A DNA stretch of 64,000 bases from Maribacter sp. BPC-D8 (GTDB lineage Bacteria; Bacteroidota; Bacteroidia; Flavobacteriales; Flavobacteriaceae). A program made the translations under genes and the position numbers. Where the stretch lies: the NCBI RefSeq assembly GCF_035207705.1, contig NZ_CP128187.1:4464001-4528000 (forward strand). Reading direction: 5' to 3'. This document shows, piece after piece, positions 2,884 through 49,592 of this stretch; within the stretch, counting starts at the first letter, position 1, and each line of letters starts with the position of its first letter. The notes beneath the pieces are model-generated. The model saw only the letters and a list, made by a program, of their open reading frames with translations. It was not told where the DNA came from and made no database searches.

Positions 2884-3022
2884 TAGTAGCGGGGACTGGA
2901 CTCGAACCAGCGACCTTCGGGTTATGAGCTCCTCGTTTGGAAAAATTCCAACGGTTTTATAGGGCTCAACCGCTATCAAATTATAAAATCGTATGCAAAA
3001 ACGTATGCAGTTTTAGTTTTCT
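2884..3022 (-). repeat. Repeat A: tRNA-linked attachment-site repeat
   Basis: A 139-bp block matching 49454-49592 with only three substitutions and no indels, in the same orientation. On the minus strand its inner 46 bp (2929-2884) are the 3' half of an initiator-type tRNA-Met: anticodon loop CTCATAA, CCCGA anticodon-stem arm, T-loop TTCGAGT, acceptor arm CCCCGCT. The tRNA 5' half is absent; the preceding bases do not pair to the anticodon stem or form a D arm. The outer part holds tandem CGTATGCA words (2990-3009), plausible recombinase arm sites. This looks like an integrated-element end joined to a tRNA 3' half. The broken integrase starts 40 bp away. Confidence 0.8.
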
Positions 3023-3247
3023 AATTAATGATTTATTTCTGAAAGCAAGATATACAAAAAAAGTATTTTTCTATTTGAGATTTACGGTTTCTAAATTGTC
3101 GCAATATATTTTCAATTTAATAATTAGTAGTTACAATTTGGTATTTGACATAGCTGCTACTAATCAGTTTATCACTTGTAACACCTGTTGTTTTTGATTG
3201 TAGATTTCCTATATTAATTCTGTATTTTAGGACAAAATTTAAGCAAA

Positions 3248-6200
3248 GTGGTATCCGTAAATTTTAGTTCCCTCAGAATTGTGTTGTTTTTAATAATGAC
3301 ATTGATATACTCTTCCGTCTTTGGTCAAAAAGTAAAATTTAAAACCTTGACTACCAATGAAGGTTTATCCAATAACTCGGTAAATGATATTATCAGCAAT
3401 ACAGATGGGGTATTATGGATTGCAACATGGGATGGACTGAATTTATATGATGGACATAATTTTTTAATATTTAAACATATACAATCTGATTCTACTTCTA
3501 TAGCAGGGAACGTGGTCACCAGACTTTTCAAAGATTATACTGGTGCTATGTGGCTTTTGACCAATAATAAATCGGTTAGTAGGTATTTAGGGGATGGAAA
3601 GTTTAAAAGCTATTATTTGAAAGATCAACCTAGAGAGTTTAAGTTGTCTCAAAATGGTGAATTGATTGTAGAGATTAATGATGATGAAGCTTATCATTTC
3701 GAGAATGAACACTTTGTTAAAAAAGTAAATATTGATTCTTACAGAAATAACAAGAGTACACTTAATAACATATTACTTTCTAAATTTCCTAAACTTACTA
3801 TTAATGAGTCAATGAGAGACCATGATGGCAATATTTGGTATGCTACTCAAAATAATGGTTTATTTATTATTCGAAAAAACAGCGAAAATATACATAATGA
3901 AAAGGTAGAACATTATGAATATGACCTTTATTCTAAATACAGTTTTACTAGTAATGAAATAGAAAAGATATACCAAGATGATTTTGGTAATGTATGGTTA
4001 GGACATAAAGATGGTGGATTAAGTATGGCATATCGAGGATCTGAGCATATCGGTGTGATAACTCCTCATCCTATAAAACAGCCTAATTTACCGTATGAAA
4101 CGGTAAGAGCTATTACTAAGGATGTAAATAATAATATTTGGATTGGCTATTACACCCAAGGCGTGTTTAATTATGATTCTGCAACAAAAAGTTATTTGAA
4201 ACATGATCTGTCTATACTATCTGGAAATCAAGATTGGAATAGAATACGAAGCCTATTTACATCTTCAGACGGATCGGTTTGGGCGGGTACATATGCAGGT
4301 GTGGTTCGAATTAAAAATGGTAAAAAAACCTTTTTTAACGCAGCCGATTTTGAGAATTTCCCGAACAATAGAAATTATTCGATGTTTGAAGACCATAAAA
4401 AAAAACTTTGGATAGCCTGCTGGGGTGGTCTCGCCAAATTTGATTTAGAAAAGGGGAAGTTCACAACTTTCAATGGGCAAGGTAAATTAGCCGATTTGAA
4501 TATTAGAAAAGTGTTTATTTATGAAGATGAAGCTATTCTTTCAATAGAAGAAGGTGGCGTAATTATCTTAAATACTATTACAGGTAATATCTCAGGTATT
4601 AATAAAGAAGATGGTATACTTAGTAATAATACGTATAGTGCCTTTAAAGATGGTAAAACAGGATATTATTGGATTGCCAGCTCAGAAGGGATAAGTGTAT
4701 TTGATAAGGAAAAAGGTCTTATAAAAAACATTGAAGAATATAATGGACTCCCAAGTCATTTGGTGTATAGTTTAATATTGAACAGTGATAAGGTTTGGGT
4801 AAGTACTACTAAGGGAATAGCTGCTGTAGATAGGAACAACTATTCAGTTTCAAGCTTAAACTCTGATGAAGGCTGGCAGGCTGCTGAATTTTCAGAAGGC
4901 GGCTATTACCAAGATTTTAACGGATCCCTGTATTTTGGTGGTATCAATGGGTTGAACTATTTCTCTCCGATGACTATTGATTTCGTTAAAGAGCTTCCTA
5001 GACTTATAGTTTCTGTCGATGATAAAAGAAATTTTACAGGGGAAATCACGAAAGACTATTCTGATAATGTATTAAAGTTCGAAGTATCTTCTGTATCCTA
5101 TACTAAGAATACTGATAATAAAATCTTATACAAATTATCTGGTTTCGATTCTAATTGGCATGTACTTGATGAGAGTCCCGTCTATTATTCTAATTTGCCA
5201 TATGGACATTATAATTTAGCAATTAAGAATTCTCTTGATACTAATGACGAATTTGCTAAAACGTTTAACATTATTGTAAATAAGCCATTTTATCTAACTG
5301 GGTGGTTTATTTCTTTGTTTTTGGTTGCCCTATTTACTGGTCTAACTTATTTGTACTTCTTAAGAAACAAAAGTGTTGTTCGAAATCGAAAAATACTCGA
5401 GCAGAGGATTCTTGGAAGAACGAAGATAATTAATGATCAAAAGCAAAATTTAGAAGAAACAAATCAGAAACTTGACAAAAAAAATAAAGAGGTAGGTAGG
5501 CAAAAGGAAGAACTTTTAAACTTGTACCAGCAGCTTAAAAATGAAGATTTTGAAATTGATAAGTTCAAGGCATTCGTTTTATCTGAGTTCAAAGAACCAA
5601 TAATTAAGATTATTACAAGTGCAGATCAATTGGAAAATCAGTCTCTAATAAAGAAAGATATTTCAACACATTCTGGGGAATTGTTAAACTTATTAATGGA
5701 GTGGGATTACTTGGGGCATATTAAAGAAGTTGGAGCCATCAATAAATCTATTATTAATTTAAAATCAACTATAAAACCTCTAATCGAAAACCTGAAAGTG
5801 CAATCATCAAAATCGAAATTGCATTTAGATTATACACTTGACTTATCAGATGCATTGGTTGAGATGGATGTTCTTAGGTTTAAATTACTTTATAAATACT
5901 TATTTAATGTCATCATTAAGTATGCACTTACAAATAGTTCTTTAAAAGTTGTTTTAGAGAATAGTGAAGGAATGTTTTTTATGAACATAAGTTCTGATAG
6001 TAAGATTTTTAAAGATAATTTTTTCAATATTGAACATTATAGCCCATATTTTAGAGCGGTATATACATTGGTTACAGCCATGAACGGGCAATTGAACATA
6101 GATTATGAAAAGGCATTGTCTTTAGAATTAAAATTGCCTGTAAAATTAATTGACACTAAGGGTAATGGGGTAGAGCATGTATCATGGAAACATATTGGTC

Positions 6201-6994
6201 TTGATGAAAAATTGCCTTCAAATAAAAATAATATTCTTGTTTTTTGCGAAAAGAATGATTTTGTACCGGCGAAGCAATTGTTAGAACATCCGAACAATAC
6301 ATTATTATTTGAGAATGCTATAGACGAAGCTTTATCTGCTATTAAACAAGTAAACTTACATGGGCTAGTGGTTTATAATACACCAATTAATGAAAGTCTT
6401 ATTCAGTTGTGCAATGCTATAAAAAATGATGGTTCTCAAACAACACTTCCTTTAATATATATATCTGAAGAAATCGATTATTTTTTACGGGAGCAAACTA
6501 TTGAGTTAGGTGTAGATACTATTATTCAATTACCCGCAAGTAAAGTTTTTATACAGAAAAAGTTCTCAAAGCTGATTACGAGTCGGAGAGAATTTTTAAG
6601 CGACAAATCGAAACAACTACTTTATAATAGTTCTTTTTCTAATGATGATAAACTGCTATCTTCTAATGAGAAATCGATAAAAAAGGCAATAAGTATTATT
6701 CATAAGAATATAAGCGACCATTCCTTTAACGTTGATAAGTTGGCGAAAATGCTTTTTGTTTCTAAAATTAAAGGATATAGAATGTTCAAAGAGGTGTTAG
6801 GGCAGTCTCCTTTAGATGTAATTATTGATTTAAGATTACAAAAAGCGCAATATTTATTAAAAAATAAAGCACTAAACATAACAGAAGTGAGTCGAGAATG
6901 CGGATTTAACGATCCAAAGTACTTTAGTAGGCTATTTAAAAAGAATATTGGCTGCAGTCCAAAGCAATTTAGGGAAAGCCTTGAAGATGCTTGA
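3248..6994 (+). CDS. Hybrid two-component-type PUL regulator with degenerate kinase and receiver
   Basis: A protein of 1248 residues with GTG start and signal peptide ending near SSVFGQ. The periplasmic part has about ten regulator-propeller repeats (DGVLWIATWDGLNLYDG, DGNIWYATQNNGL, KKKLWIACWGGLAKFD and so on). A Y_Y_Y domain follows at about 590-675, a membrane helix at about 680-705, then a coiled coil. The cytoplasmic part has the shape of an HTCS but is degenerate. The kinase H-box reads FVLSEFKEPI, with Ser where the phospho-His should be, and the D-x-G-x-G and G-x-G ATP boxes are missing. The receiver reads LVVYNTPINES, with no acceptor Asp. The C-terminal AraC-type HTH (about 1143-1245; FNVDKLAKMLFVSK, ECGFNDPKYFSRLFKK) is intact. 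It probably senses an oligosaccharide and activates the susCD operon that follows; signalling by phosphate transfer is unlikely. Confidence 0.88.
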   Translation: MVSVNFSSLRIVLFLIMTLIYSSVFGQKVKFKTLTTNEGLSNNSVNDIISNTDGVLWIATWDGLNLYDGHNFLIFKHIQSDSTSIAGNVVTRLFKDYTGAMWLLTNNKSVSRYLGDGKFKSYYLKDQPREFKLSQNGELIVEINDDEAYHFENEHFVKKVNIDSYRNNKSTLNNILLSKFPKLTINESMRDHDGNIWYATQNNGLFIIRKNSENIHNEKVEHYEYDLYSKYSFTSNEIEKIYQDDFGNVWLGHKDGGLSMAYRGSEHIGVITPHPIKQPNLPYETVRAITKDVNNNIWIGYYTQGVFNYDSATKSYLKHDLSILSGNQDWNRIRSLFTSSDGSVWAGTYAGVVRIKNGKKTFFNAADFENFPNNRNYSMFEDHKKKLWIACWGGLAKFDLEKGKFTTFNGQGKLADLNIRKVFIYEDEAILSIEEGGVIILNTITGNISGINKEDGILSNNTYSAFKDGKTGYYWIASSEGISVFDKEKGLIKNIEEYNGLPSHLVYSLILNSDKVWVSTTKGIAAVDRNNYSVSSLNSDEGWQAAEFSEGGYYQDFNGSLYFGGINGLNYFSPMTIDFVKELPRLIVSVDDKRNFTGEITKDYSDNVLKFEVSSVSYTKNTDNKILYKLSGFDSNWHVLDESPVYYSNLPYGHYNLAIKNSLDTNDEFAKTFNIIVNKPFYLTGWFISLFLVALFTGLTYLYFLRNKSVVRNRKILEQRILGRTKIINDQKQNLEETNQKLDKKNKEVGRQKEELLNLYQQLKNEDFEIDKFKAFVLSEFKEPIIKIITSADQLENQSLIKKDISTHSGELLNLLMEWDYLGHIKEVGAINKSIINLKSTIKPLIENLKVQSSKSKLHLDYTLDLSDALVEMDVLRFKLLYKYLFNVIIKYALTNSSLKVVLENSEGMFFMNISSDSKIFKDNFFNIEHYSPYFRAVYTLVTAMNGQLNIDYEKALSLELKLPVKLIDTKGNGVEHVSWKHIGLDEKLPSNKNNILVFCEKNDFVPAKQLLEHPNNTLLFENAIDEALSAIKQVNLHGLVVYNTPINESLIQLCNAIKNDGSQTTLPLIYISEEIDYFLREQTIELGVDTIIQLPASKVFIQKKFSKLITSRREFLSDKSKQLLYNSSFSNDDKLLSSNEKSIKKAISIIHKNISDHSFNVDKLAKMLFVSKIKGYRMFKEVLGQSPLDVIIDLRLQKAQYLLKNKALNITEVSRECGFNDPKYFSRLFKKNIGCSPKQFRESLEDA

Positions 6995-7128
6995 TATTAC
7001 TGGTGTTTCGCTCAAAATGTCTTATTGTTGATTGAATAGTATATCCACTAATTCTGTTCAAATCAGAACCCTAACTGAAAGATTAGTGCACCTTTTTGGT
7101 TTATTTGACCCCTATAAAATTTAGTTGC

Positions 7129-7148
7129 TTGACTATTTTTGGAGTCAA
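7129..7148. promoter_or_regulatory. Inverted repeat upstream of susC, possible regulator site
   Basis: TTGACT-N8-AGTCAA is a perfect 6-bp dyad 20 bp before the SusC start codon, in the 174-bp gap after the regulator gene. It could be a binding site or a leader hairpin. The assignment rests on position and symmetry only. Confidence 0.3.
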
Positions 7149-7168
7149 CCAAATAACCGAAATTTTAA

Positions 7169-10100
7169 ATGAAAAAGTATTACGTATTCTTAGTTTTATG
7201 TGTTTGCGCACTAACAAGTTTATCTGCGCAAACCATTGTACAGGGCACGGTTGTTTCCAAGATAGATGGTATGCCGCTTCCGGCAGCATCTGTAATTCCT
7301 AACGGGGAAACAACGAATGGAGTTGCCACTGATTTTGACGGTGTTTTTAGAATTGAACTTAATGAATCTGAAGGGGTTTTAGTAGTGTCATCAATTGGGT
7401 TTGGCTCTGTTGAAGTGGCATATTCGGGAAATCAAACCCTTCAAATTGAGTTAGATGAAGAAGCTAATAGTCTCGATGAAGTTGTTTTGATTGGATATGG
7501 TACAGCAAGAAAAGGAGATATAACATCTTCTATTTCACAGGTAGATGGAATTGAAACCATTGCCAGCCGACCAGTTTCTTCATTTACAGATTTTTTGCAA
7601 GGAAATGTTGCTGGGGTTACAGTAATGCAACAAGGGGGTGATCCAACCAGTAGTGGTCAAATAGTAATAAGAGGGTATGGTTCAATATCTAATGAATCTC
7701 CGCTAACTGTAGTTGATGGGGTCCCTTATTATGGGCCAGCTATTAATCCACAAGATATTGCGTCGGTATCTGTATTGAAAGATGCTGCCGCTGCAGCAAT
7801 ATATGGTGCTCAAGCAGCTTCTGGTGTAATTGTAATTCAAACAAAGAAAGGTAAAAAGGGAAAACCTAGAATTAGCTTGGATCTTTATGGTGGTATTCAA
7901 AACGCAGAAGGTTTGCCTACACCTTTAAATGCGGAACAACAAGCAAGTGTTTATAATCTTGCGGCCGCCAATGGCGGTACATCTCCACAAGCAGCTCATG
8001 ATGCCGCACAAAACCCATGGGGTCAAACAACCAGAACTAATTGGATGGATGAAATATTTAGATCTGCTGCTTTAGTTAATACAAATATTAATATTAGCGG
8101 AGCTACGGATAATGTTAATTACATGACATCTTTTGGGTATAACAGCAAAGAAGGTGTACTTGTAGGAACAAAATCTGATCGTTATTCTTTTCGTCTTAAA
8201 TCAGACTTAAGTCTTTCGGATAAAGTTACTATTGGCGAAAATGTATACTACTCGATTACAGAAGCAGTAGGTACAAATACAAGTAGTGGTTATTCTGGTA
8301 CCATTATGAATGCGCTTTACTTTCCATCTGCGGCACCAGTTCGCGATGAAAACGGCTTATTTCATGGAGTTGTACCTTTTGATCTTTCGCAATTTGCAGG
8401 TGCATATGGTGATGTTTACAACCCCGTTGCACTTTTATTACGTCCTACGACTACCAGTCCTACTAATTTTATTAATGCTCAAGTTTATTTGGATTATGAA
8501 ATTATTGAAGGTCTAAAATTTAGAACAAGTTTCGCGCATAGTACAAGTCACAATGAATATAAATCATTTGTACCTCGTGTTCCAGAATTAGGTAGAACTA
8601 ATTTAACTAATTCATTGACCCAGAGTAATAGCATAACTAATAGAAGAGTTTGGGATAATCAATTAACATATGCCAAGTCTTTTGGAAATCATAATTTAGA
8701 TGTTACGGCTATTTACTCAAGTCAGTTTACCAATTATGAATCATTGACCCAAAGGGCAGAAATTTTCAGTAGTGAAGAACCTTTTAATCAGTATTTATCA
8801 AATGCAGCTGATCAGAAAGAACCTGTTACCGATGTTTACGAGGATGCTTTAACTTCTGCAATCGGAAGGGTTACGTATAACTATGATAATAAATATTTTG
8901 CCACTGCTAGTGTTCGTAGAGATGAAACTTCTCGATTAGCGTTAGACAATCAATCAGATATTTTCCCGGCAGTTTCAGTGGGTTGGAGAATTTCAGATGA
9001 AAACTTCTTCAAGGTTGATAAAATCAATGATTTAAAATTTAGAGCTTCTTGGGGTCAGATTGGTAATATAAATTCTGTTGGTTATTATTCTTTTGATGTT
9101 CCATTAGGGTCACAAACTTTAATTATTGGTGAAGATGGATTAAGTAATGATAAAGGGGTATACGCTAGCCAACAATCTAATCCTGACTTAATTTGGGAAA
9201 CATCAGAATCTATTGATGTTGGTTTTGATGCTATGGCATTTGACAACAGGCTATCTGTGACTTTCGATTATTTTCAAAAAACGACTTTCGATATGATTTT
9301 AGAAGGTTTAGAGGATAAGCATCAAGGTACAGATGCAGCATTTGTTAACGGTGGAGAGGTAAAGAATGTTGGTGTTGAACTTTCTTTAGCTTATAGTGAC
9401 AAAATTGGAGAATTCAATTATACTGTCAGGGCAAATGCTGCGATGTTAGAAAATACACTTGAAAACCTAGATGGTTATAACAATAGTGGTATTGACTTTG
9501 TATCACACGATGACTACCAGGTAAGAGATGCATTAAGACCTTATCGTTCTACAGTGGGCGAAGCTTTGCGTTCGCATTACTTAGTACCTTATGTAAGTAT
9601 CTTTCAATCGCAGGCAGAAATAAATAATTACACTAAAGATGGTGTACTTATACAGCCTAATGCAGTTCCAGGAGATCTTAAGTTTCAGGATACTGATGAT
9701 GATGGAGATATTGATAATGACGATAGGGTATATCACGGAAGCTATCAACCAGACCTTACCTATAGCTTTAATTTCAGTGCTAATTATAAAGGGTTTGATG
9801 CGAGTCTAATTCTACAAGGTGTAGCTGGTGTTGAAGCATTTAACGGTTACAAGTATGCGGCTTACAATGCATCTTTACAGGGCTATAATTTAGATAGTAG
9901 AGTTTTAGACGCTTGGACAGCTTCAAACACAAATACAGATATTCCAAGAATATCAACGACAGATAATAATAATAACTTTGGTACACAGTCAACTTGGTAC
10001 TTGGAAGATGCTTCTTATTTGAGATTTAAGAATGTAACCTTTGGCTATTCTTTTCCGAATTATGTAATGGATAGTTTACTAAATGGATCTTCTTTGCGTA

Positions 10101-10237
10101 TTTACATATCCGCTGAAAATTTATTTACAATTACAGATTATACAGGTATTGATCCAGAAGTAGGTGGAATAGGTCTAGATGTTGCCCAATATCCTTTATC
10201 AAGAACGATATCTGCAGGACTATCATTAAAACTATAA
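7169..10237 (+). CDS. SusC/RagA-family TonB-dependent outer-membrane transporter
   Basis: A protein of 1022 residues. Signal peptide is about residues 1-20 (cleavage near LSAQ). A carboxypeptidase-regulatory-like domain at about 22-95 (TNGVATDFDGVFRI) leads into SLDEVVLIGYGT at 101-112, a plug domain with VVDGVPYYGP and an alanine-rich DAAAAAIYGAQAASGV segment, and a 22-strand-type barrel to the C-terminal ISAGLSLKL. It imports oligosaccharide across the outer membrane with TonB energy. No STN domain is present, which fits control by the adjacent HTCS-like protein rather than a sigma/anti-sigma pair. It is followed after 20 bp by its SusD partner. Confidence 0.96.
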   Translation: MKKYYVFLVLCVCALTSLSAQTIVQGTVVSKIDGMPLPAASVIPNGETTNGVATDFDGVFRIELNESEGVLVVSSIGFGSVEVAYSGNQTLQIELDEEANSLDEVVLIGYGTARKGDITSSISQVDGIETIASRPVSSFTDFLQGNVAGVTVMQQGGDPTSSGQIVIRGYGSISNESPLTVVDGVPYYGPAINPQDIASVSVLKDAAAAAIYGAQAASGVIVIQTKKGKKGKPRISLDLYGGIQNAEGLPTPLNAEQQASVYNLAAANGGTSPQAAHDAAQNPWGQTTRTNWMDEIFRSAALVNTNINISGATDNVNYMTSFGYNSKEGVLVGTKSDRYSFRLKSDLSLSDKVTIGENVYYSITEAVGTNTSSGYSGTIMNALYFPSAAPVRDENGLFHGVVPFDLSQFAGAYGDVYNPVALLLRPTTTSPTNFINAQVYLDYEIIEGLKFRTSFAHSTSHNEYKSFVPRVPELGRTNLTNSLTQSNSITNRRVWDNQLTYAKSFGNHNLDVTAIYSSQFTNYESLTQRAEIFSSEEPFNQYLSNAADQKEPVTDVYEDALTSAIGRVTYNYDNKYFATASVRRDETSRLALDNQSDIFPAVSVGWRISDENFFKVDKINDLKFRASWGQIGNINSVGYYSFDVPLGSQTLIIGEDGLSNDKGVYASQQSNPDLIWETSESIDVGFDAMAFDNRLSVTFDYFQKTTFDMILEGLEDKHQGTDAAFVNGGEVKNVGVELSLAYSDKIGEFNYTVRANAAMLENTLENLDGYNNSGIDFVSHDDYQVRDALRPYRSTVGEALRSHYLVPYVSIFQSQAEINNYTKDGVLIQPNAVPGDLKFQDTDDDGDIDNDDRVYHGSYQPDLTYSFNFSANYKGFDASLILQGVAGVEAFNGYKYAAYNASLQGYNLDSRVLDAWTASNTNTDIPRISTTDNNNNFGTQSTWYLEDASYLRFKNVTFGYSFPNYVMDSLLNGSSLRIYISAENLFTITDYTGIDPEVGGIGLDVAQYPLSRTISAGLSLKL

Positions 10238-10257
10238 TCAATTCTAAAATATTTATA

Positions 10258-11847
10258 ATGAAAAATAAAATTGCAAAAATAATTATGGTCACCATGGTAG
10301 TGATCTTTTTAGGGCCAGTTTCCTGTTCAGATGATTTCACTAATTTAGAACCATTAGGAAGTAGTTCTTACGAAAACTTCTGGAAAACAGAGCAAGATGC
10401 CATAGAATCAGCGAATAGTATGTATTACTATATGAAAGATGAAGATATGTTTTCTAGAGGCTTTTACTGGTACGTAAATGCTTCAGATGATATGGTTACT
10501 GGACGAATTAAGGCAGATGCGGATAATGCAAAGAATTTTAATTTAACTGGTGATGAAAGTTCTTTAAAATGGATGTATGCGCAGTGCTATAAGGTTATTC
10601 GAAGAGCGAATGATGTTTTGGTGAATGTACCTGGAATGGATATTTCAGAATCTTTAAAAGACAGACTTTTGGGTGAAGCTTATTTCATGAGAGCTTTTCA
10701 CTACCACTATTTAGCATATCACTATGGTGATAATGGAACCAATGGAGGAGTGCCAATCTTAACTGAAGAAAATTATAATGATGAAGCTGGTAGTTATTCT
10801 AGACCAACAAGCGTAGTTGAAAACTATGCACAAATAATTGAAGATCTTAATAGTGCTGCTGAACTTTTACCATTGATTACAGAATTAAATGGTGAAGATT
10901 ATGGTAGAGCACATAAAGATGCCGCATTGGCATATATTGCTAAAACATATATTTATTGGGCACAATACGATGCTTCCAAATATGCAGATGCGGTTATAGC
11001 TGCAGATGCCGTAACCAACTCTGGTTCTGGTAGAGCATTGATTGATACAGATAATCCTGAACTTGATTTTAGAGAACTGCACAGTCACTTGAATAACTGG
11101 ACAAGCGAATATATTTGGTCTGTTGATTCGGGTATTGAGGACGGTAGCAAATTACCAGGTGTTGTATTAGAGAACAAAGGATGGGGGCTATATAATGGTT
11201 GGGGTTATTACCATCCTTCATTAGGTCTTTATGAAGCTTTTGAAGATGGAGATGTTAGACGTGAAGTAACCATGCTAAAATTTGGAGATGAGTTTGAGTT
11301 CTTTGGTGAAACCAGAAGATATGCTTCAGAGAATTCCCAATCAGGATTTCAATGGAACAAATATATGTATGAGTATCAAGGTGAGAATCCTATAGGGGTA
11401 ACCGTAAATGCGAATGGTAATAATCCAACGACATTATATAATGTACCTATTCTTAGATATGCCGAAATACTTTTGATAAAATCAGAAGCTTTGATTATGC
11501 AAGGTCAAAATGGAGATGCGCCACTAAATGCTGTTCGTGATAGGGCTGGCTTATTACCTATATCTGGGGCGACCATGGATGATTTAAAACAAGAGAGAAG
11601 AGTTGAACTAGCCGGTGAATTTGCCAATAGGCATTTTGACCTTGTGCGATGGGGAGATGCCGATGCTATTTACTCAGAACCTATTTATGGAAGAATACAC
11701 GCTGATAAAGCTGATCCAGATTCCCCTTTTACCGTTGAAGAAATATGGCCTGCGAGGCCACAATTCAACCCTACTACAATGCATGTTTGGCCTATTCCAA
11801 ATGAATCTATAGAATCTTCTGGAATTCTGCAAAACACAGGATGGTAG
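10258..11847 (+). CDS. RagB/SusD-family glycan-binding lipoprotein
   Basis: A protein of 529 residues with a lipoprotein signal ending GPVSC-S, so the lipidated Cys is near residue 23. SusD TPR-like features include AYFMRAFHYHYLAYHYGD, RYAEILLIKSEALI, QERRVELAGEF...HFDLVRWGD and the C-terminal VWPIPNESI...LQNTGW. It is the surface-exposed partner of the SusC encoded 20 bp upstream and binds the substrate before import. The gene is probably cotranscribed with susC, and a hairpin terminator lies in the 91-bp gap before the phosphatase gene. Confidence 0.95.
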   Translation: MKNKIAKIIMVTMVVIFLGPVSCSDDFTNLEPLGSSSYENFWKTEQDAIESANSMYYYMKDEDMFSRGFYWYVNASDDMVTGRIKADADNAKNFNLTGDESSLKWMYAQCYKVIRRANDVLVNVPGMDISESLKDRLLGEAYFMRAFHYHYLAYHYGDNGTNGGVPILTEENYNDEAGSYSRPTSVVENYAQIIEDLNSAAELLPLITELNGEDYGRAHKDAALAYIAKTYIYWAQYDASKYADAVIAADAVTNSGSGRALIDTDNPELDFRELHSHLNNWTSEYIWSVDSGIEDGSKLPGVVLENKGWGLYNGWGYYHPSLGLYEAFEDGDVRREVTMLKFGDEFEFFGETRRYASENSQSGFQWNKYMYEYQGENPIGVTVNANGNNPTTLYNVPILRYAEILLIKSEALIMQGQNGDAPLNAVRDRAGLLPISGATMDDLKQERRVELAGEFANRHFDLVRWGDADAIYSEPIYGRIHADKADPDSPFTVEEIWPARPQFNPTTMHVWPIPNESIESSGILQNTGW

Positions 11848-11886
11848 TAGTATTTAAATTATTAGTTTGAGTTAGTTTTCATTCAC

Positions 11887-11927
11887 AGAAAAGGTGTGAC
11901 ACCGTAATGGTTTAGCACCTTTTTTTT
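11887..11927 (+). terminator. Probable terminator or attenuator after SusD
   Basis: AAAAGGTG (11889-11896) can pair with CACCTTTT (11916-11923), followed by more T residues. It lies between the SusD and phosphatase genes, so it may lower rather than stop downstream expression. Confidence 0.6.
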
Positions 11928-11938
11928 AATATCCGAAA

Positions 11939-13741
11939 ATGATTAGAAGTTTTTTCTTTATTATATGCCCTTTATTAATAGCTACACAATTTGTGCAAGC
12001 TCAGCAAGGGAACCATTATAAAATACATTCACATAATGATTATCTACAAACTGTACCATTCTGGAGTGCATATGCCAATGAATTGGAATCGATTGAAGTT
12101 GATGTTTTTTGCAAAAACAAAACTTTGTATGCCACACATAGTGAGTCAGATATTATAATAGAACGCACTTTTCAGGCTTTATATCTTCAACCTATTCAGA
12201 AAATAATTGAGCTTGAATTAGGGAATCAACAAGAAATACAATTGCTTATTGACATTAAATCGGAGCCTTATAAAACATTGGATAAACTTATTTCTATTTT
12301 AGAAAAATATCCAGATGTCATTCACAATGAAAAGATTTCAATAGTAATTTCAGGAAATAGACCAGAAGAAAAAGATTATGCCAACTATGCCGATTATATA
12401 ACATTCGATCATCAGACCTTAGAAATTTCGGATAATGAAAAGGCTTGGGAAAAAATAGCATTGGTGAGCTTGAATTTCAATGATTTTTCAGAATGGAATG
12501 GAAAGGGAAGGTTAACCGCCGGTGATTATAAAAAAGTAAAAACGGTAATCGACAGTGTGCATTCCTTAGGGAAATCTTTTAGGTTTTGGGGAGCCCCAGA
12601 TAGCAAAACTGCTTGGAAAGTATTTAAGGAATTAAATATGGATTTCATTAATACAGATAAAACGTATGCATCGGCTGCTTATCTTAAAGATTTAGAAAAC
12701 CGTATGTATACTAACGAAATCTTCTCTGAAGTATATATACCAACTTTTTCTAGTGATAAAAAGAATATGCCTATTAAGAATGTTATTTTACTCATAGGCG
12801 ACGGTAATGGCTTGTCCCAGATTTCCTCATCACTTCTCGCTAACGGCGGAGACTTGACCTTGGCGCAAATGAAGAGTATTGGTTTTATAACCACCCAGTC
12901 AGCCGATGATTTTACAACAGATTCGGCAGCTGCTGGCACAGCGCTTGCTACAGGAGAACGAACATATAATCGTGCTATAGGTGTAGATACATTACAACAA
13001 CCATTAGTAAACTATTCAGAGTTGCTATCAGAGTACAATTATGTTTCCGGATGCATTACTTCAGATAGAATGACAGGAGCAACCCCAGGTTCGTTTTATG
13101 CTCATCAAAAAGATAGATCTGATGTAAGAGAAATAGCAGGAGATCTATCGAAAAGCAAGCTTTCTTTGTTTGTTGGTGGCGGATCAGAAGATTTTCAAGG
13201 TAAAGAAAGGGTTGTTGGTTATGATATGTTGGATAAGGTGGATGCTATAGGTTCTAGTAAAAGTGATAAAGTAGGTTTTTTTATATCTGAAAAGGAAGTG
13301 CCTAGTGTTTTAAACGGTAGAGGTAGCGTATTGGCTGAAGCTACTAAAAATGGTATACAGTTCTTGAGTTCTAAGAACAAGCCATTTTTCTTAATGGTCG
13401 AGGGTGCTCAAATTGATAACTACGGACATACCAATAATGTTTCGGGAATAGTTTCAGAAGGAATAGATTTCGATAGAGCAATAACCGAGGCAGTTAAATA
13501 TGCTGATAAAATGGGAAATACATTGGTTATTGTTACCGCAGATCATGAAACATCAGGTTTCAGTATTCCACAGGGGAATTTAGAAAAAGGAATAATAGAA
13601 GGCGATTTTACTACCCATGATCATACCGCGACTATGGTCCCTATATTTGCCTATGGTCCTCATTCACAAGAATTTCAGGGTGTGTATAAGAATAGTGATT
13701 TGTTTGGTAAAATATTGAAAGTACTTGATTTGAAGGAGTAA
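11939..13741 (+). CDS. GDPD/PI-PLC-like domain fused to alkaline phosphatase
   Basis: A protein of 600 residues with a signal peptide ending FVQAQ. Residues about 25-255 resemble the phosphodiesterase TIM-barrel superfamily (GDPD/PI-PLC): HSHNDY near the start, then ESIEVDVF, then ATHSE, giving the expected H...E-x-D...H set. Residues about 280-600 are a PhoA-type alkaline phosphatase. LLIGDGNG supplies a metal Asp, TTDSAAAGTALATG holds the serine nucleophile, and VEGAQIDNYGHTNN, TADHETSGF and HDHTATMVPI supply the remaining metal ligands. The two activities would cut a phosphodiester and then remove the exposed monoester phosphate, outside the cytoplasm. Lying after SusCD and before another phosphoesterase, it suggests a phosphate-bearing glycan or glycerophosphodiester substrate. 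Domain calls are firm; substrate is inference. Confidence 0.88.
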   Translation: MIRSFFFIICPLLIATQFVQAQQGNHYKIHSHNDYLQTVPFWSAYANELESIEVDVFCKNKTLYATHSESDIIIERTFQALYLQPIQKIIELELGNQQEIQLLIDIKSEPYKTLDKLISILEKYPDVIHNEKISIVISGNRPEEKDYANYADYITFDHQTLEISDNEKAWEKIALVSLNFNDFSEWNGKGRLTAGDYKKVKTVIDSVHSLGKSFRFWGAPDSKTAWKVFKELNMDFINTDKTYASAAYLKDLENRMYTNEIFSEVYIPTFSSDKKNMPIKNVILLIGDGNGLSQISSSLLANGGDLTLAQMKSIGFITTQSADDFTTDSAAAGTALATGERTYNRAIGVDTLQQPLVNYSELLSEYNYVSGCITSDRMTGATPGSFYAHQKDRSDVREIAGDLSKSKLSLFVGGGSEDFQGKERVVGYDMLDKVDAIGSSKSDKVGFFISEKEVPSVLNGRGSVLAEATKNGIQFLSSKNKPFFLMVEGAQIDNYGHTNNVSGIVSEGIDFDRAITEAVKYADKMGNTLVIVTADHETSGFSIPQGNLEKGIIEGDFTTHDHTATMVPIFAYGPHSQEFQGVYKNSDLFGKILKVLDLKE

Positions 13742-13911
13742 TAGTAAGTTATATAACCTACAATAAGTTTATGGTTGCCCACGGCAAAGACAGTGTGTTT
13801 TTTTAGACAGGATGATAAATGTAATTAGGGGCATCTACTCTTAAAAATGGAAGTTTTTATATTGACGACTTGTGGAAATTTAGAAAATATCAAAGTTGCT
13901 CGATTCTGAAA

Positions 13912-40111: not shown

Positions 40112-40116
40112 AAATT

Positions 40117-43832: not shown

Positions 43833-45593
43833 ATGAGAAAAGCTAACCTATTATTGATTTTTCTATTCGTTGTGAATATTTCTTTATCTCAAGATGAAAG
43901 TAAAATACAATGGTGGAACCCTGTAAATAGTGAGGTTCCTGTAATTGAAGGTAAAAGTTGGTCAAATGAAGGGAAATCTATTTACCATAGATTTCCAAAG
44001 AAAGCAGAAGTTACTGTAAGAGAAGATGTTTGGAACTTATCAAAACAGTCAGCGGGGTTATCTATACGGTTTTGGTCAAATGCAGACAGTATTAAGATTA
44101 AGTATAAGCTAAAAGGATCTATTTCAATGAATCATATGCCGGCAACCGGCGTAAGCGGATTAGACATGTACAGTAAAACATATGATGGTGAATGGCTTCG
44201 TTGTACAGGTTCATATACCATTAATGCAGAAAGCGATTACTCATTTAAAATCGATGAAAAATCTGATTCTTATAAAAAGTACGGAAGAGAATACCAGCTG
44301 TTTTTACCATTATATAACGAAATAGAAACGTTAGAGATTGGTGTGGTAGAAACATCTTTTTTTAATGCGCTACCCATACGAAATGAGAAACCTATAGTAG
44401 CTTATGGCACTTCTATTTGTCAAGGGGCATGCGCTTCTCGACCAGGAATGGCTTGGACTAGTATTTTAGAGCGAAAACTGGAAAGACCGGTTATTAACCT
44501 TGGTTTTTCTGGAAACGGAATGTTAGAGCCCGAAGTAATCGATTTAATGACAGAGGTTGATGCAAAATTGTACATCTTAGATTGCTTGCCGAATTTACAT
44601 CCAGATGAAGATGATATTTATTCGCTAACTATTGCTGCGGTTAAAAAACTAAAAACGAAAAGACCATTGGTGCCTATAATCCTTACATCTCATATAGGTT
44701 TTGCAGATGAATTAACTAATGAAAAACGGACTGGTTTAATTTTAAAGCTTAATAATGAATTCGAAAAAGCTTTTAATGACTTAAAATCAGACGGGTTCGA
44801 AAACATTTTTCTATTGCAAAAACATGATTTGAACTTTGATTTTGATATGTACGTTGATCATATACACCCTAATGATTATGGTATGATGCAATATGCAGAT
44901 ACCTATGAAAATAAAATAAGAGAAATACTAGATGAGCCAGTAGGGGAATTGAGTACTACAATAGCTAAAACACAAAGTAGAGATATTTCAGTCTATAAAT
45001 GGGAAGAAAGGCATCAAGAGGTTCTTAAACTAAACAAAACGGATAAAACGAAAATATGCTTGATTGGCGATTCTATTATTAATTTTTGGGGAGGGGAACC
45101 AGAATCATCGATAGCAAGAGGACAAGGTTCTTGGAGTAGTTTGTTAGAACCTTTGGGCGTACGCAATTTCGGATTTGGTTGGGATAGAATAGAGAATGTA
45201 CTCTGGAGAATATATCACGACGAGCTTGATGAATTTGATGCAGAACAAATTGTTTTAATGATTGGCACAAATAATTTAGATATTAATAGTGATATCGAGA
45301 TTACTAACGGATTGAAAGCTTTGATAGAAGCTATTAAAATACGTCAACCACAAAGTGCTATTCAGTTGATAGGCATATTGCCAAGAACTGGTAAAGAAAA
45401 ACGAATTGAAAGTATAAATCTTAAATTGGCAGATTTAGCAAAATCAGAATCAATTGATTTTAATATTATTGGGAATCCATTGCTAGGTAAAGATGGAAAA
45501 ATAAACGAGTCGTTGTTTACAGATGGGTTACACCCCAATAGTGAAGGTTATATCATTTTAGGAAAGTCTCTTCATCAATTAATAGAGGATTAA
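43833..45593 (+). CDS. Secreted esterase with two SGNH/GDSL hydrolase domains
   Basis: A protein of 586 residues with signal peptide ending NISLSQ. A beta domain (about 25-165; LSIRFWSNADSIKIKY, VSGLDMYSK) precedes the first SGNH domain (about 185-370: VAYGTSICQGACASRPG, GFSGNGML, DHIHPNDYGMMQYA). A second complete SGNH domain follows (about 405-586: CLIGDSIINFWGG, GFGWDRIENV, MIGTNN, DGLHPNSEGYIILG). Each carries its own Ser and D-x-x-H, so both may be active. It would remove acyl groups (for example acetyl) from a glycan. The double arrangement is notable; no ancillary T9SS tail is seen. Confidence 0.87.
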   Translation: MRKANLLLIFLFVVNISLSQDESKIQWWNPVNSEVPVIEGKSWSNEGKSIYHRFPKKAEVTVREDVWNLSKQSAGLSIRFWSNADSIKIKYKLKGSISMNHMPATGVSGLDMYSKTYDGEWLRCTGSYTINAESDYSFKIDEKSDSYKKYGREYQLFLPLYNEIETLEIGVVETSFFNALPIRNEKPIVAYGTSICQGACASRPGMAWTSILERKLERPVINLGFSGNGMLEPEVIDLMTEVDAKLYILDCLPNLHPDEDDIYSLTIAAVKKLKTKRPLVPIILTSHIGFADELTNEKRTGLILKLNNEFEKAFNDLKSDGFENIFLLQKHDLNFDFDMYVDHIHPNDYGMMQYADTYENKIREILDEPVGELSTTIAKTQSRDISVYKWEERHQEVLKLNKTDKTKICLIGDSIINFWGGEPESSIARGQGSWSSLLEPLGVRNFGFGWDRIENVLWRIYHDELDEFDAEQIVLMIGTNNLDINSDIEITNGLKALIEAIKIRQPQSAIQLIGILPRTGKEKRIESINLKLADLAKSESIDFNIIGNPLLGKDGKINESLFTDGLHPNSEGYIILGKSLHQLIED

Positions 45594-45795
45594 TAATAAC
45601 TAGTAAAATAAGATAATAAGTCGAAGGCTAACTATTGCAATATTTGAATCTAAAAACTAATATAGATTCTTAAAATGCTTTGTGTTTCTACAAAACTACA
45701 TTAATTTTCTTCGCAACGGTAATAGGTTTAAAATACCATTCTGACCTTTAAGATAATTATTGTTCAAAAAACTAAGTCAATCAAAATTTATAGAT

Positions 45796-46863
45796 ATGTT
45801 GTTAGAAAAATTAAAATTTGCATTCAGTAAATTTCAACACGATAGTGAATTTAAATCATACCAAGAATTGGCTTCAGGTCACATTAATTCTACTTATTTA
45901 ATTAAGACAGAATCTAAGACAAACTTTGTTTTACAATGTATCAATGATAATGTTTTTAATGATGTGCAGGGGTTAATTTCAAATAAATTTAATATCAGCA
46001 CTCACTTAAAAGAAAAACTGAAAGACTTATCGAAAGATGAATTGTATAGTAGTGTTTTAACTTTCATTGAAACTAAAGAAGGTAAGCCTTACTATATAGC
46101 GAAGGACGGGAGTTATTGGAATTTAATGAATTATATAGATGACAGTATTACTTTCGAAACTGTAGGCGATAAAGAAGTAGCATATGAAGCAGGTAAATTA
46201 TTTGGAGATTTTTTGAACTTGACTAATGATTATGATGCTACTGAATTAATCGAGGTTATACCAAAATTTCATGACATGCTTTTTAGATTTTCACAATTTC
46301 AAAAAGCAATAAAGGCATCCTCTAAAGAACGACTTGCAAAATCACAAGAATGTATAGATTTCGCATTTGAGTTAAAGGAAGAGATGCATATTATTCAAAA
46401 TCTTAAAGAATCTGGTAAAATAAACGTGCGAGTCACACATAACGACACTAAAATATCTAACGCATTATTTTCCAAAAACAATAAAGGACTTTGCGTTATA
46501 GATACTGATACAGTAATGCCTGGAATTGTACATTATGATTTTGGCGACGCCATTAGAACTATATGTAATACGGCTGCCGAGGATGAGACCAACTTAGATT
46601 TAGTTGAATTTAATATGGAGTATTATAAAGCTTATGAAAAAGGGTTTTTAGAGAAAATTAGGACTACGTTAACTGCATTAGAATTGCAATATTTGCCATT
46701 AGGAGCCAAAACTATGATGTTTATAATGGGACTTAGGTTTTTAACAGACTACCTAAATAACGATGTATATTATAAAATAAAGTATGCTGAACATAATTTA
46801 GATAGGGCAAAGAATCAGTTCAAACTAGTTCAAAGTTTTAGTAAAAAAATGAACCAATTATAA
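45796..46863 (+). CDS. NahK-like N-acetylhexosamine kinase (APH-fold phosphotransferase)
   Basis: ATG 45796 is preferred over a TTG start at 45760. About 355 residues. An aminoglycoside-phosphotransferase fold with YQELASGHINSTYLI (nucleotide loop), RVTHNDTKISNALF (catalytic Asp segment) and VIDTDTVMPG...YDFGDAIRT (metal-binding Asp). The HNDTK-x-SN...DTVMPG arrangement is that of bifidobacterial N-acetylhexosamine 1-kinase. It probably phosphorylates C1 of a HexNAc released by the GH109-like enzyme. No matching pyrophosphorylase or epimerase is seen in the window, so the downstream steps would be elsewhere. Confidence 0.83.
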   Translation: MLLEKLKFAFSKFQHDSEFKSYQELASGHINSTYLIKTESKTNFVLQCINDNVFNDVQGLISNKFNISTHLKEKLKDLSKDELYSSVLTFIETKEGKPYYIAKDGSYWNLMNYIDDSITFETVGDKEVAYEAGKLFGDFLNLTNDYDATELIEVIPKFHDMLFRFSQFQKAIKASSKERLAKSQECIDFAFELKEEMHIIQNLKESGKINVRVTHNDTKISNALFSKNNKGLCVIDTDTVMPGIVHYDFGDAIRTICNTAAEDETNLDLVEFNMEYYKAYEKGFLEKIRTTLTALELQYLPLGAKTMMFIMGLRFLTDYLNNDVYYKIKYAEHNLDRAKNQFKLVQSFSKKMNQL

Positions 46864-46957
46864 TTAAAAATTGAGTTTATTTACACCAGATTTCTTGCTC
46901 TTAGATTATAATATCTGATATACTTTATTTTTATACAAACATTAAAGAATTATTACC

Positions 46958-47176
46958 ATGAGTTACATAGATAAATTTGGAGCAGAAGATATAGATTACC
47001 TCTTGCACCATGATGAGGGATTAAAATGTTGGCAAACAGATTATAGATTGTTAAGAGAACGCGATGAGGAATATGATACGCTAATGTGGTTGGGTGGTAT
47101 GATTGATTTTAAGAATTTATGTGAATTAGATAAGCCTAAACAATTACCGAGACAGCGCCCATTGTTTCCTCAATAA
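46958..47176 (+). CDS. Hypothetical protein, 72 aa
   Basis: A small acidic protein (FGAEDIDYLLHHDEGL, EEYDTLMWLGGMIDF) with no signal, membrane segment or family I can name. It follows the kinase gene after about 95 bp on the same strand and precedes the convergent hipBA operon. It may close the catabolic cluster or be independent. Confidence 0.55.
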   Translation: MSYIDKFGAEDIDYLLHHDEGLKCWQTDYRLLRERDEEYDTLMWLGGMIDFKNLCELDKPKQLPRQRPLFPQ

Positions 47177-47220
47177 TCAAGACAAAATTACTCACAGGCT
47201 TGTTATTTAAAAATAATAGT

Positions 47221-48492
47221 TTAACTCGTTCTAAAAGCAATTACTTTCAATTCTTGCTCAACTCTAGAGATACCATATTTTGTTGCTATACTTCTCCAAC
47301 TAGCAACGGCAATCAATACCTCCTTTTTAATAGCATAAGCTTTATCTTTTGATAATCTAAAATATTCAGAGACTTCAATTGCTAATTCCAAATCTAATGA
47401 ATTATCCTCATCAGAGATATTAAGTTTTAAACCGGTACCAGTTTCTACAGGGTTAATATCGTATGCTGGTGATAATGCCCATCCATTATCGGTTAGTAAG
47501 AAACCATGATTTCTTAGGTGGTCATCTGTATTTGTTACACATATACTAAATACAATTCTGCGCCACAGCTGTTCTAGGTCCTCGTCCACATTTGCACCAT
47601 GGTTTTGTATAAAATCAACAAGTTCTAAGTAACTGGCGCCATCCGAATGGTCTTGACCATCCATATAGCCGAGCATAGTCATTGCCGATGCGAAATGTAT
47701 TCTCTCTCCTTTAATGCCACGGTCAAATCTTTTGGTTAAAAAAGTATAGTAATTTGAAGAGAATTTTTGCGCTTTAGATTCAGCCATATGAATTCCTGCT
47801 AAAATGGCTAATTCATGTACTACGATTTCCCACCCGCCAATGTCACCTTGGTCATTTCTACTCGGAAACTTCGCTATCCAAAGTGCACCATCATTATCTA
47901 CAATACTAGCTTTGGGTCTTGCTCCCCCTAATGATGCTCCGGGTGCAATTAGCATACTCAACCATTTTAAATAGTCTGGGTCATCAATAACATCGTCATC
48001 TTCTAATCGTAAACTAATTTGCTCAAGTTCTCTAAGAGATGCCCATGGCGGACTTGCCATTTTTTTATTATCGTTTAAAAATGGACCGTCTTCTTCTGCT
48101 TTAAATCTCAACGCTCCCATTCTATGTCCGTCAAAAACACCAAGAAGGTAATCGGTTTCGAATAATTTATTTTCTTCTCTATTATCCGTTCTCGCGAGAG
48201 CAGCTTCTCTTCTGCGCATTAGAATTCGTCCCCAACGGTCAGGTGAAGAATCTAGAAATATTCCAAAATTATCTTCATCGTCATTAAGATATTGTAATCC
48301 CGAATATAACTGTAAGTTGGGATCTAATAATTGTGCATGTTCACTCTGCAACCATTCAGCGGTATATTCAAAAGAAAATAGCTCCTTGCCTTTTAAGCGG
48401 TCAGAATTTAGAGTTCCCATAAGTAAAGGGTTTTTCATGCCCGACCAATGTGCGTAAACGGCTATAGCTTTCTTATTATTTTGTTTAGCCAT
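47221..48492 (-). CDS. hipA: HipA-family serine/threonine kinase toxin
   Basis: A protein of 423 residues. The N-terminal subdomain leads into the P-loop-like segment LIAPGASLGGARPKA, whose Ser is the autophosphorylation site in E. coli HipA. The catalytic-loop segment is TNTDDHLRNHGF and the metal-binding segment SPAYDINPV; both Asp residues are present, so the kinase looks intact. HipA kinases phosphorylate tRNA synthetases or other targets and slow growth when free of HipB. Its start overlaps the end of hipB by 8 bp, the normal operon arrangement. It lies near the right edge of the repeat-bounded block. Confidence 0.9.
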   Translation of the reverse strand: MAKQNNKKAIAVYAHWSGMKNPLLMGTLNSDRLKGKELFSFEYTAEWLQSEHAQLLDPNLQLYSGLQYLNDDEDNFGIFLDSSPDRWGRILMRRREAALARTDNREENKLFETDYLLGVFDGHRMGALRFKAEEDGPFLNDNKKMASPPWASLRELEQISLRLEDDDVIDDPDYLKWLSMLIAPGASLGGARPKASIVDNDGALWIAKFPSRNDQGDIGGWEIVVHELAILAGIHMAESKAQKFSSNYYTFLTKRFDRGIKGERIHFASAMTMLGYMDGQDHSDGASYLELVDFIQNHGANVDEDLEQLWRRIVFSICVTNTDDHLRNHGFLLTDNGWALSPAYDINPVETGTGLKLNISDEDNSLDLELAIEVSEYFRLSKDKAYAIKKEVLIAVASWRSIATKYGISRVEQELKVIAFRTS

Positions 48493-48811
48493 TTTTATCT
48501 TTTCGTTTAGGAGCCCTTTCGTTGGTACTTATATTTGCATCTTGTAATTTTCTTCCTAAAACGTCATCCTTAGCAAGTGAGAGAAAATCTTTTTCTAATC
48601 CCAAAACTAGAAGAACTAATAAATAGGAGCCAATACTTACAGTCGGTGCGCCCTTTTCAATAGAGGATAAAGTTGGTCTACTAATATTTGCTCTTTCGGC
48701 TACTTGCTCAGAACTAAATTTTCTTCTCAAGCGTGCGAGCTTTATATTCTCGCCCATTTCTTCAAGAATCTTTTTAGTTTTAGGTAGAATTATCATTTTC
48801 TTTTTAGGCAT
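48485..48811 (-). CDS. hipB: HipB-like antitoxin/repressor
   Basis: A protein of 108 residues with an XRE-type HTH: MGENIKLARLRRKFSSEQVA, RANISRPTLSSIEKG. A basic C-terminal tail (NERAPKRKDKNG) could reach HipA. It is the first gene of the hipBA operon. A perfect 20-bp inverted repeat touches its start codon and is the likely self-repression site. It is only distantly similar to the orphan HipB-like protein encoded at 1512-1730. Confidence 0.9.
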   Translation of the reverse strand: MPKKKMIILPKTKKILEEMGENIKLARLRRKFSSEQVAERANISRPTLSSIEKGAPTVSIGSYLLVLLVLGLEKDFLSLAKDDVLGRKLQDANISTNERAPKRKDKNG

Positions 48812-48866
48812 AACACTAAATATATTTTACAAATATACATATTTATGTAAAATATATTTAGTGTTA
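48811..48866. promoter_or_regulatory. Perfect 20-bp inverted repeat at the hipBA promoter
   Basis: The arm at 48811-48830 is the exact reverse complement of 48847-48866, separated by 16 bp. The left arm includes the first base of the hipB start codon. It is a probable HipB operator covering the promoter. The loop also contains TTTTAC/GTAAAA-type symmetry, so looping or two HipB dimers are possible. Confidence 0.65.
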
Positions 48867-49453
48867 TAAAGTAATTCTTGTAAGTTGTACTTCAAATAAA
48901 GTATTAGTGATTGATTGCATAACTATTTAGTTCGTAATACTTCAAATAAATAACCCACTGTAGTCAGTGGTGTTTTACTTAATAAAAATAACACTTCTTG
49001 ATTTATACAGTAATTAGACATAGAATCACTTAGATTTTGTGAGTTTAGCTTATCCAATTATTGCTCAATTCGTTCCAGGCGCTGATTTATGATTTCGAAA
49101 GGATTTTCCGTAGTTTAATAGATTTTAAATTTTATAAATTGATAAGATTTACATTATGAAATATAACTTAAACGCGTATTTCGCTATGCAATAATGGTTT
49201 TTGTTATATTCTGATTATCAATAAATTATATTTAAAAAAAATAATTTTAAGTTTACGGTAGATTTATTAGAAATGAATTTTTAGAGATTAAAATATAGTG
49301 TCCCTATTGATTCCACTTTTTCCGTAAAAATCCTCACTAAAGAACAGAGAGCTTTAATTGAAACAGAGAGCATTCATTTGCAGCCAAAACATTCTAAGTC
49401 TTTCAAAAATTTAGAGCATAAAAAAAGCCTCTGAAAATTCAGAGGCTTTGCCT
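48867..49453. other. Intergenic region between hipBA and repeat B
   Basis: 587 bp. Apart from the terminator-like hairpin at its right end I see no gene. A minus-strand tandem of GCTCTCTGTT (two copies about 19 bp apart, around 49340-49370) and a 40-odd-codon open stretch near 49300-49430 without start are the only structure, and may be decayed coding DNA. Confidence 0.45.
49421..49447 (-). terminator. Rho-independent terminator downstream of the tRNA-Met 3' half
   Basis: AGCCTCTGAA and TTCAGAGGCT (49426-49435, 49438-49447) form a 10-bp stem followed, on the minus strand, by seven T. It sits 6 bp beyond the tRNA-like 3' end of repeat B, where the natural terminator of a tRNA gene would be. 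Confidence 0.75.
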
Positions 49454-49592
49454 TAGTAGCGGGGACTGGACTCGAACCAGCGACCTTCGGGTTATGAGCT
49501 CATCGTTTGGAAAAATTCCAACGGTTTTATTGGGCTCAACCGCTATCAAATTATTAAATCGTATGCAAAAACGTATGCAGTTTTAGTTTTCT
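49454..49592 (-). repeat. Repeat B: tRNA-linked attachment-site repeat
   Basis: 139 bp differing from repeat A (2884-3022) at three positions only, same orientation, 46.57 kb away. The minus strand carries the 46-bp 3' half of an initiator-type tRNA-Met (49499-49454), and the 5' half is again missing. Here the tRNA end is followed by a strong terminator, unlike repeat A where an integrase start follows. Together with repeats A and C it marks joints of inserted DNA. Confidence 0.8.

Follow-up and report, generated by a model that had tools for sequence, protein, structure and literature searches.

In gut Bacteroides, polysaccharide loci are carried by integrative and conjugative elements (ICEs) and moved by integrative elements. 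For marine Bacteroidota, the gain and loss of such loci are, to our knowledge, mostly known from gene trees. Tandem islands at a single RNA gene have been described at ssrA of Dehalococcoides, where islands lacking an integration module are thought to have been moved by accretion (McMurdie 2011, PMC3146451). The present analysis concerns a 64,000-nucleotide stretch of Maribacter sp. BPC-D8 (genome G000; contig NZ_CP128187.1, positions 4,464,001 to 4,528,000 of the forward strand), referred to as the window, the coordinates of which are continued into the DNA on either side. It contains three repeats, A, B and C, that each hold the 3′ part of a tRNA-Met gene, and it is very likely that these are attachment-site scars of a tandem array of genomic islands, left by tyrosine integrases recombining in the anticodon loop of an initiator tRNA-Met. 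The array occupies ~128 kb from a topoisomerase gene to an intact tRNA-Met and consists, from left to right, of segment I, a repair block, segment III, repeat A, segment 2a, repeat C, segment 2b, a HipBA-like stretch, repeat B, the cargo of an island termed E1, an integrase module and the tRNA gene.

Repeats with a tRNA-Met core

Repeats A (2884-3022) and B (49454-49592) each span 139 bp, with exactly three mismatches between them. Treated as a 153-nt repeat family they are 95% identical, a resemblance that is not due to chance (E 1e-65). The first 46 bases of each are a core that represents, on the minus strand, the 3′ half of tRNA-Met beginning at the anticodon loop (A, 2884-2929; B, 49454-49499, the left attachment site of E1), beyond which both share a non-tRNA arm (2930-3036 and 49500-49606). 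When the whole genome, a single contig of 4,783,464 bp, was searched with the 153-bp repeat, matches were returned at A, at B and, for bases 1-46 alone, at 84407-84452, to which the core of A is 100% identical. This third match falls 20 kb to the right of the window in an intact tRNA-Met(CAT) (84409-84482, minus strand), which we take to be an initiator from its three anticodon-stem G-C pairs and unpaired first base. ARAGORN calls no tRNA in the 64-kb window, and A, B and C are all without a tRNA 5′ half.

Repeat C (15577-15635, minus strand) retains 22 bases from the end of the tRNA and 37 from the outer flank, the latter 92% identical to that of A, with ~105 bases between these two ends deleted. 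It scored below the threshold of the genome-wide search and is supported instead by G020, a relative in which more of C is preserved at the same site. As judged from an integrase remnant kept there in G020, on its left, C is a true junction. It stands between a metallophosphoesterase gene, which ends at 15426, and a GH31 gene (15670-17286, minus strand).

A first-pass annotation of the window had reported the two 139-bp copies with three differences, the deleted copy between the phosphatase and GH31/sigma-factor loci and the missing tRNA 5′ halves, all of which alignment and ARAGORN confirm. It had also pointed to the right of the window as the place to look for an intact initiator tRNA-Met and a full integrase, and both were found there. 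Full-length copies of the repeat occur, genome-wide, only at the array locus rather than being scattered.

Integrases at the junctions

The intact tRNA-Met is separated by 54 bp from the start of a tyrosine recombinase of 439 amino acids (83036-84355, minus strand), behind which lie OrfX (248 amino acids, 82303-83049) and then OrfZ (140 amino acids, 81840-82262), both also on the minus strand. Pfam recognizes integrase domains in the recombinase weakly, one above and one below the cut-off, and PHROG 1 (integrase) matches its C-terminal 302 amino acids at 1e-29. By eye, the usual catalytic residues appear to be present. The predicted structure of OrfX (pTM 0.66) gave no informative structural match.

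A second, divergent integrase is represented at the right end of segment III by an N-terminal remnant with an internal stop codon (2488-2820, minus strand; tblastn E 1e-12, 31.5% identity to the intact integrase of G000), which is of the type found in the relative G034. A frame at 2686-2979 that overlaps this remnant and the core of A has 89% identity to its counterpart beside the G034 tRNA. From these comparisons, segment III seems to be a further island that ends at A and was placed by another type of integrase. Repeat A had been regarded earlier as the outer edge of the inserted DNA; this view falls with the remnant on its left and with the comparison with G006, described below, by which inserted DNA reaches 46 kb further left.

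The presence of a tyrosine recombinase integrating at a tRNA gene, and the 35% identity of the G000 integrase to that of a Leeuwenhoekiella phage, raise the idea that the islands are prophages in decay or phage satellites relying on helper phages for packaging. One open reading frame (ORF) of 123 amino acids (2034-2405) weakly resembles a virion structural family (E 4e-4), and the island sizes of 13.6-38.6 kb could fit a capsid. However, none of 50,697 phage records has a match to OrfX at E 0.01, viral contigs contain no confirmed relative of it, and the cargo scanned is metabolic; we regard a phage origin as improbable.

In 164 kb there are four pairs of the motif CGTATKC with a 12-bp spacing: one in the arm of A (2990 and 3002, as CGTATGC), one in that of B (49560 and 49572, likewise CGTATGC) and two within the opening codons of the integrase; the motif was chosen with these sites already in view. 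The pairs look like arm-type integrase sites flanking the core on both sides, and B and A would therefore both be plausible left partners of the tRNA-side site. The usual integrase reaction would likely join the tRNA-side site to B, giving 34,953 bp, or to A, giving 81,523 bp. Recombination of A with B joins two sites of the same kind, each a core plus a distal arm, and the 46,570-bp product needs homologous recombination. The ~46.6-kb excision proposed in the first-pass annotation would have to take that homologous route, and the probable integrase products are of 35 or 81.5 kb instead.

In the mechanism that we propose, each insertion would displace the 3′ half of the tRNA gene and replace it with the element's own copy, leaving the gene whole. 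The displaced half, together with the distal arm of the element, would mark the far end of each island, as at A, B and C. Segment I, the repair block and segment III would also be islands. E1 may still be able to excise, as a 35-kb circle or, using A, as one of 81.5 kb, and resident islands would have been re-ordered and re-packaged with other integrases. Transfer from cell to cell would call for a helper.

Empty, single and tandem occupancy in related genomes

Thirty-six genomes of the genus, G000 included, were compared. The topoisomerase gene has a full-length match in 18 of them (its own included) and is on the same contig as the tRNA in 11. The distance between the two is 45 bp in G006, 251 bp in G005, 38.7 kb in G032, 48.7 kb in G031 and 49 kb in G030, and it rises through 61 (G035), 69 (G012), 76 (G034), 94 (G004) and 107 kb (G011) to the 128 kb of G000. 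G006 provides a clean empty site, with 45 bp between the topoisomerase gene and the tRNA-side match and no half copy; the comparison with relatives that the first-pass annotation recommended thus yielded an unoccupied site, and the repeats are missing from this uninserted relative. In G005 a short scar contains, by eye, an integrase start. At least one extra tRNA half copy is found in 22 of the 36 genomes, again counting G000, those in G003, G007 and G015 being weak.

G032 carries a single module island. Pfam was run on 30 of its ORFs, and the family names listed (25 of 68) are suggestive of the catabolism of beta-ketoadipate and vanillate. In G004 a repair block, an island of the G032 type and an ICE stand in tandem, a 47-bp core separating the last two. 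The ORFs shared by the G004 and G032 islands are 91-100% identical in protein, most 97-100%; a 922-amino acid ORF is confined to the G004 side of this comparison, and several ORFs to that of G032. Different arms follow the same core in relatives.

These observations also bear on whether plain segmental duplication or homologous recombination, with no integrase involved, produced the repeats. A and B are 98% alike and could recombine homologously with one another. Set against this are the extent of the core, which has the anticodon loop and the 3′ end of the tRNA as its limits, the different arms behind the same core, and the integrases at the joints; the empty site and the G004 tandem largely refute such an origin, which we regard as extremely improbable.

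The ICE of G004 (L062-L064), of Bacteroidetes type, is located at the array tRNA and carries its own integrase at its far end. Among nine of its proteins scanned are Transposon_TraM, a coupling protein, an RND efflux protein and a multicopper oxidase. It is 99-100% alike in G011 and has relatives, with gaps, in G030 and G035; in G030 a core copy directly follows the topoisomerase gene and the ICE relative then extends up to the tRNA. ICEs that land at the same tRNA could have mobilized the islands in cis, by accretion, taking neighbours along when excision uses an outer core. This is a real possibility, to which we give somewhat less than an even chance. It is favoured by the ICE of G004/G011 and its relatives at the array tRNA, by the direct contact of the G004 ICE with a module island across a core, and by the absence of any transfer family from the G000 ORFs scanned, namely 40 of the 50 window ORFs of at least 100 amino acids (the other 10 overlap on the opposite strand) and 10 of 16 in L005, a part of the G000 array outside the window. 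Against it, the G000 array holds no ICE today. The relaxase family PF03432, the only one searched, has no match in G000, G032, G368, G096, G155, G075, G289 or G105; it is present in G004, G012 and G020, none of the matches lying inside the array stretches examined there. The search is a weak guide in weighing accretion, since it is blank also at the G004 ICE, which bears transfer genes, and the absence of this family consequently says little.

With regard to established classes, the locus has the features of a tRNA-targeted island: a tRNA 3′ repeat at the far end, an intact tRNA at the near end, an adjacent integrase and an unoccupied relative in G006. It also shows the accretion feature of cis-mobilizable elements (CIMEs), in that 2a and 2b, which lack a module, are placed between A, C and B near an element with an intact integrase, with C decayed in G000. 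Relaxase and type IV secretion genes, which an ICE would carry, were not recognized among the G000 ORFs scanned.

Segments 2a and 2b compared with G020

Segment 2a is 95.4% identical in nucleotides to G020 over 3180-15445. Segment 2b is 89-90% identical over 15599-43669, and its last 1.7 kb (43833-45566) 75.6%; blastn gave no G020 match between 45566 and 49405. The mean identity per kb is 95.5 for 2a (12 windows of 1 kb), 88.9 for 2b (30) and 82.3 for the flanks (24), the first two differing at P 1.3e-4 and the last two at P 7e-7. In G020 the 2a-2b block adjoins the topoisomerase gene.

The same comparison bears on the idea that the block from A to B is one composite unit that arrived in a single step, with C a mere fossil inside it. 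Segments 2a and 2b do occur together, in the same order and with C between them, in both G000 and G020, and one DNA query per segment found no other place at more than 80% identity in the 36 genomes; moreover, the arm of A equals that of B, such that everything from A to the tRNA could move as a unit. The shift in identity across C in G020 and the integrase remnant on its left argue against such a compound island, which we hold to be unlikely, while still a serious candidate.

Order versus age, and points against the array

The cargo of E1 recurs in other genomes at other positions. In G025, 25.5 kb of it match at 91.5% identity and two more pieces at 84 and 91%, and it follows straight after the topoisomerase gene; in G011 and G010 the identity is 81-85%, the part at ~69.3-72.9 kb has no match, and the cargo is located to the left of the repair block. 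Integrase pieces in G025, at the tRNA end on another contig and also at the end of the cargo contig, have 44-70% identity to the G000 integrase, and it therefore seems that different integrases have been linked to the same cargo. Newer islands may have entered at the left site of E1, or E1 may have excised and re-entered.

The first-pass annotation had read the locus as successive insertions at one tRNA-Met. Integration at one site, half-tRNA junctions and separate cargo units survive from that reading; a simple left-to-right age series does not, given the flank-like identity of E1 and a C that is more decayed than A.

Several observations weigh against the array as we interpret it. The identity of the E1 cargo in G025, G011 and G010 is about that of their flanks and its order there differs, a pattern that a plain model with the newest island at the tRNA does not predict. 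No integrase remnant was found to the left of B, and no core among segment I, the repair block and segment III, the proposed joints of which come from comparison only. In G020, 2a begins 119 bp past the topoisomerase gene with no recognizable A. Identity to G020 is uneven within segments (per kb, 86.9-98.9 in 2a and 75.6-97.0 in 2b), and selection may thus contribute. The G+C content of the segments is not distinctive (31.2-36.6% versus 34.9-35.5%). The topoisomerase gene is not a universal neighbour, being full-length in only 18 of the 36 genomes and on another contig than the tRNA in seven of these, and the tRNA contig of G015 extends for hundreds of kb without it. In this comparison of sequences alone, neither an excised circle nor transfer was observed.

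An integrase module in the Flavobacteriaceae

The conserved Int-OrfX-OrfZ module is new here. A protein search with OrfX found 36 relatives, its own protein included, and a six-frame search placed it in 38 of 397 genomes of the family, some of the matches being weak (E up to 9e-4). The module counts rest on 30 loci that are the best matches of the six-frame search. The integrase is directly 5′ of OrfX in all 30, and OrfZ has a match (E 1e-3) in 22, on the opposite strand in L147. ARAGORN calls a tRNA in 17 of the loci, in every case tRNA-Met. A full 43-nt tRNA-Met 3′ half adjoins the integrase in 25, 15 of them nearest to an initiator and 10 to an elongator; the half is cut by the locus edge in two others, and none was found in three in which the locus ends at or within the integrase. 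All 27 loci with sequence at this position thus have a tRNA-Met 3′ half beside the integrase (two partly). Members of the same integrase family were seen at elongator tRNA-Met in Maribacter orientalis, M. sedimenticola and, as a remnant, a Winogradskyella metagenome-assembled genome (L096, L098, L100).

Similar arrays are present in other genera. Eight further regions were examined for half copies. G368 and G289 each have three integrases in a row, every one adjoining a tRNA or a half copy; the middle one is without OrfX and OrfZ matches in both genomes and in G289 is split into two frames. G075 has two integrases and a third half copy without one. Besides the tRNA-side integrase, then, two half copies each adjoin an integrase in G368 and in G289, as does one of two in G075. 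A single island is closed by a half copy in G096. The module of G155 adjoins a half copy, past which a second integrase-like frame ends; in G105 and two short named loci there was no half copy within the stretch covered.

Between the tRNA and the integrase lies a short leader (~84356-84400 in G000), with the integrase ATG 53-55 bp after the tRNA-Met wherever ARAGORN calls one. Of the 30 loci, 27 have sequence at the leader and were aligned, and in every one of them a terminator's T-tract runs straight into this ATG. The leader hairpin has 10 pairs, formed in 98% of alignment cells, and three pairs are changed on both sides. None of 500 shuffles reached its paired fraction or covariation score, eight of 500 reached its pair counts and seven of 500 its type counts, and slid versions of the hairpin paired at 61.6% at most. 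As the aligned sequences share ancestry and were also used to derive the structure, these statistics support, and do not prove, selection on the hairpin. Its simplest role is that of a new terminator for the tRNA, and the fusion of terminator and start codon suggests, from its arrangement, control of the integrase. By eye, the more distant integrase of G033 has the same terminator-ATG arrangement, and integrase frames of the G034 type run just after a different hairpin.

The module was found in Flavobacteriaceae, sampling of other groups being weak. We see about even chances that Int-OrfX-OrfZ elements are an undescribed family of the Flavobacteriaceae that recognizes the anticodon loop of initiator or elongator tRNA-Met and carries swappable catabolic cargo without conjugation genes, and in which integrase expression would be coupled to the tRNA: the start codon sits on the T-tract of an element-supplied tRNA terminator, and the integrase would be reached only by read-through or from the circle. 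If so, one integrase could insert or remove polysaccharide loci one at a time (35 kb) or as a block (81.5 kb).

Cargo of the array

The array contains five polysaccharide-utilization segments, putatively for algal sugars, with one SusC/SusD pair each; of the 14 SusD genes in the genome, five are within these 128 kb, one per segment (binomial P 2e-5). Segment I has sulfatase genes beside its pair. Segment III reaches the window with its end (1-1264, plus strand), comprising a SusD gene that starts at about -391, and its sigma factor, FecR and SusC genes are to the left of the window. Pfam assigns to segment 2a (3037-15576) a hybrid two-component regulator, SusC/SusD, an alkaline phosphatase and a calcineurin-like phosphoesterase, and to segment 2b (15636-45593) GH31, an extracytoplasmic function (ECF) sigma factor with FecR, SusC/SusD, an amidohydrolase, Nramp, a GH109-like protein, a sugar dehydrogenase, an esterase and others. 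The cargo of E1 (49691-64000, plus strand) includes an AraC regulator, a gluconate permease, RhaT, an enolase-like protein, an aldehyde dehydrogenase, KDG kinase, KDPG aldolase and SusC/SusD; it continues beyond the window to ~81655 with sulfatases, GH127 and GH16, after which come OrfZ, OrfX, the integrase and tRNA-Met.

The stretch unmatched in G020 (45594-49453) holds an APH-fold kinase, a HipBA-like HipA/HTH gene pair and a terminator-like hairpin. The gene pair (47221-48811), at the right end of 2b and without a G020 counterpart, could stabilize the array. An intergenic inverted repeat (17390-17470 and 18497-18577; 81 nt, 83% complementary) flanks the ECF sigma factor gene of 2b and was also seen in the comparison of G000 with G020; its halves are possibly targets of the sigma factor or the ends of an invertible segment. 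The repair block (-12336 to -6059) encodes a GIY-YIG nuclease, a UvrD helicase and UmuC-like proteins and recurs at the array site in G004, G035, G011 and G010, with decayed cores to its left in G035 and, by eye, in G004.

Comparison with known systems

The locus suggests a physical route for the turnover of polysaccharide loci, in which they are stacked, lost and re-packaged at one tRNA. An empty site, single occupants and tandems are all on hand among relatives, making the question testable; the Int-OrfX-OrfZ module is a marker by which such islands may be located, and the fusion of terminator and start codon offers a concrete regulatory hypothesis. No paper on the tRNA-Met array or its module was found among titles and the opening lines of abstracts, a coverage outside which subscription journals and preprints fall. 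Compared with the ICE-borne loci of gut Bacteroides, several loci are here stacked at one tRNA, with no conjugation genes recognized.

Accretion arrays of ICEs, integrative and mobilizable elements and CIMEs share the tandem arrangement around a common attachment core and the presence of decayed beside functional members (PMC5704250); unlike them, G000 has no transfer gene recognized among the ORFs scanned, and its cargo consists of polysaccharide loci. Tycheposons are likewise large cargo elements of aquatic bacteria that have a tyrosine recombinase and reside at tRNA genes, including tRNA-Met (PMC10872708); the comparison with them is one of descriptions, and the Int-OrfX-OrfZ module is here one of Flavobacteriaceae. 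The ssrA islands of Dehalococcoides are alike in their tandem arrangement at one RNA gene, with direct repeats of its 3′ end within 100 kb, and in combining a conserved integration module at one end with variable catabolic cargo (PMC3146451). They differ in using a serine recombinase, a six-gene module, ssrA and a 20-bp repeat, where the Maribacter array has a tyrosine recombinase, a three-gene module, tRNA-Met and a repeat of 46-48 bp.

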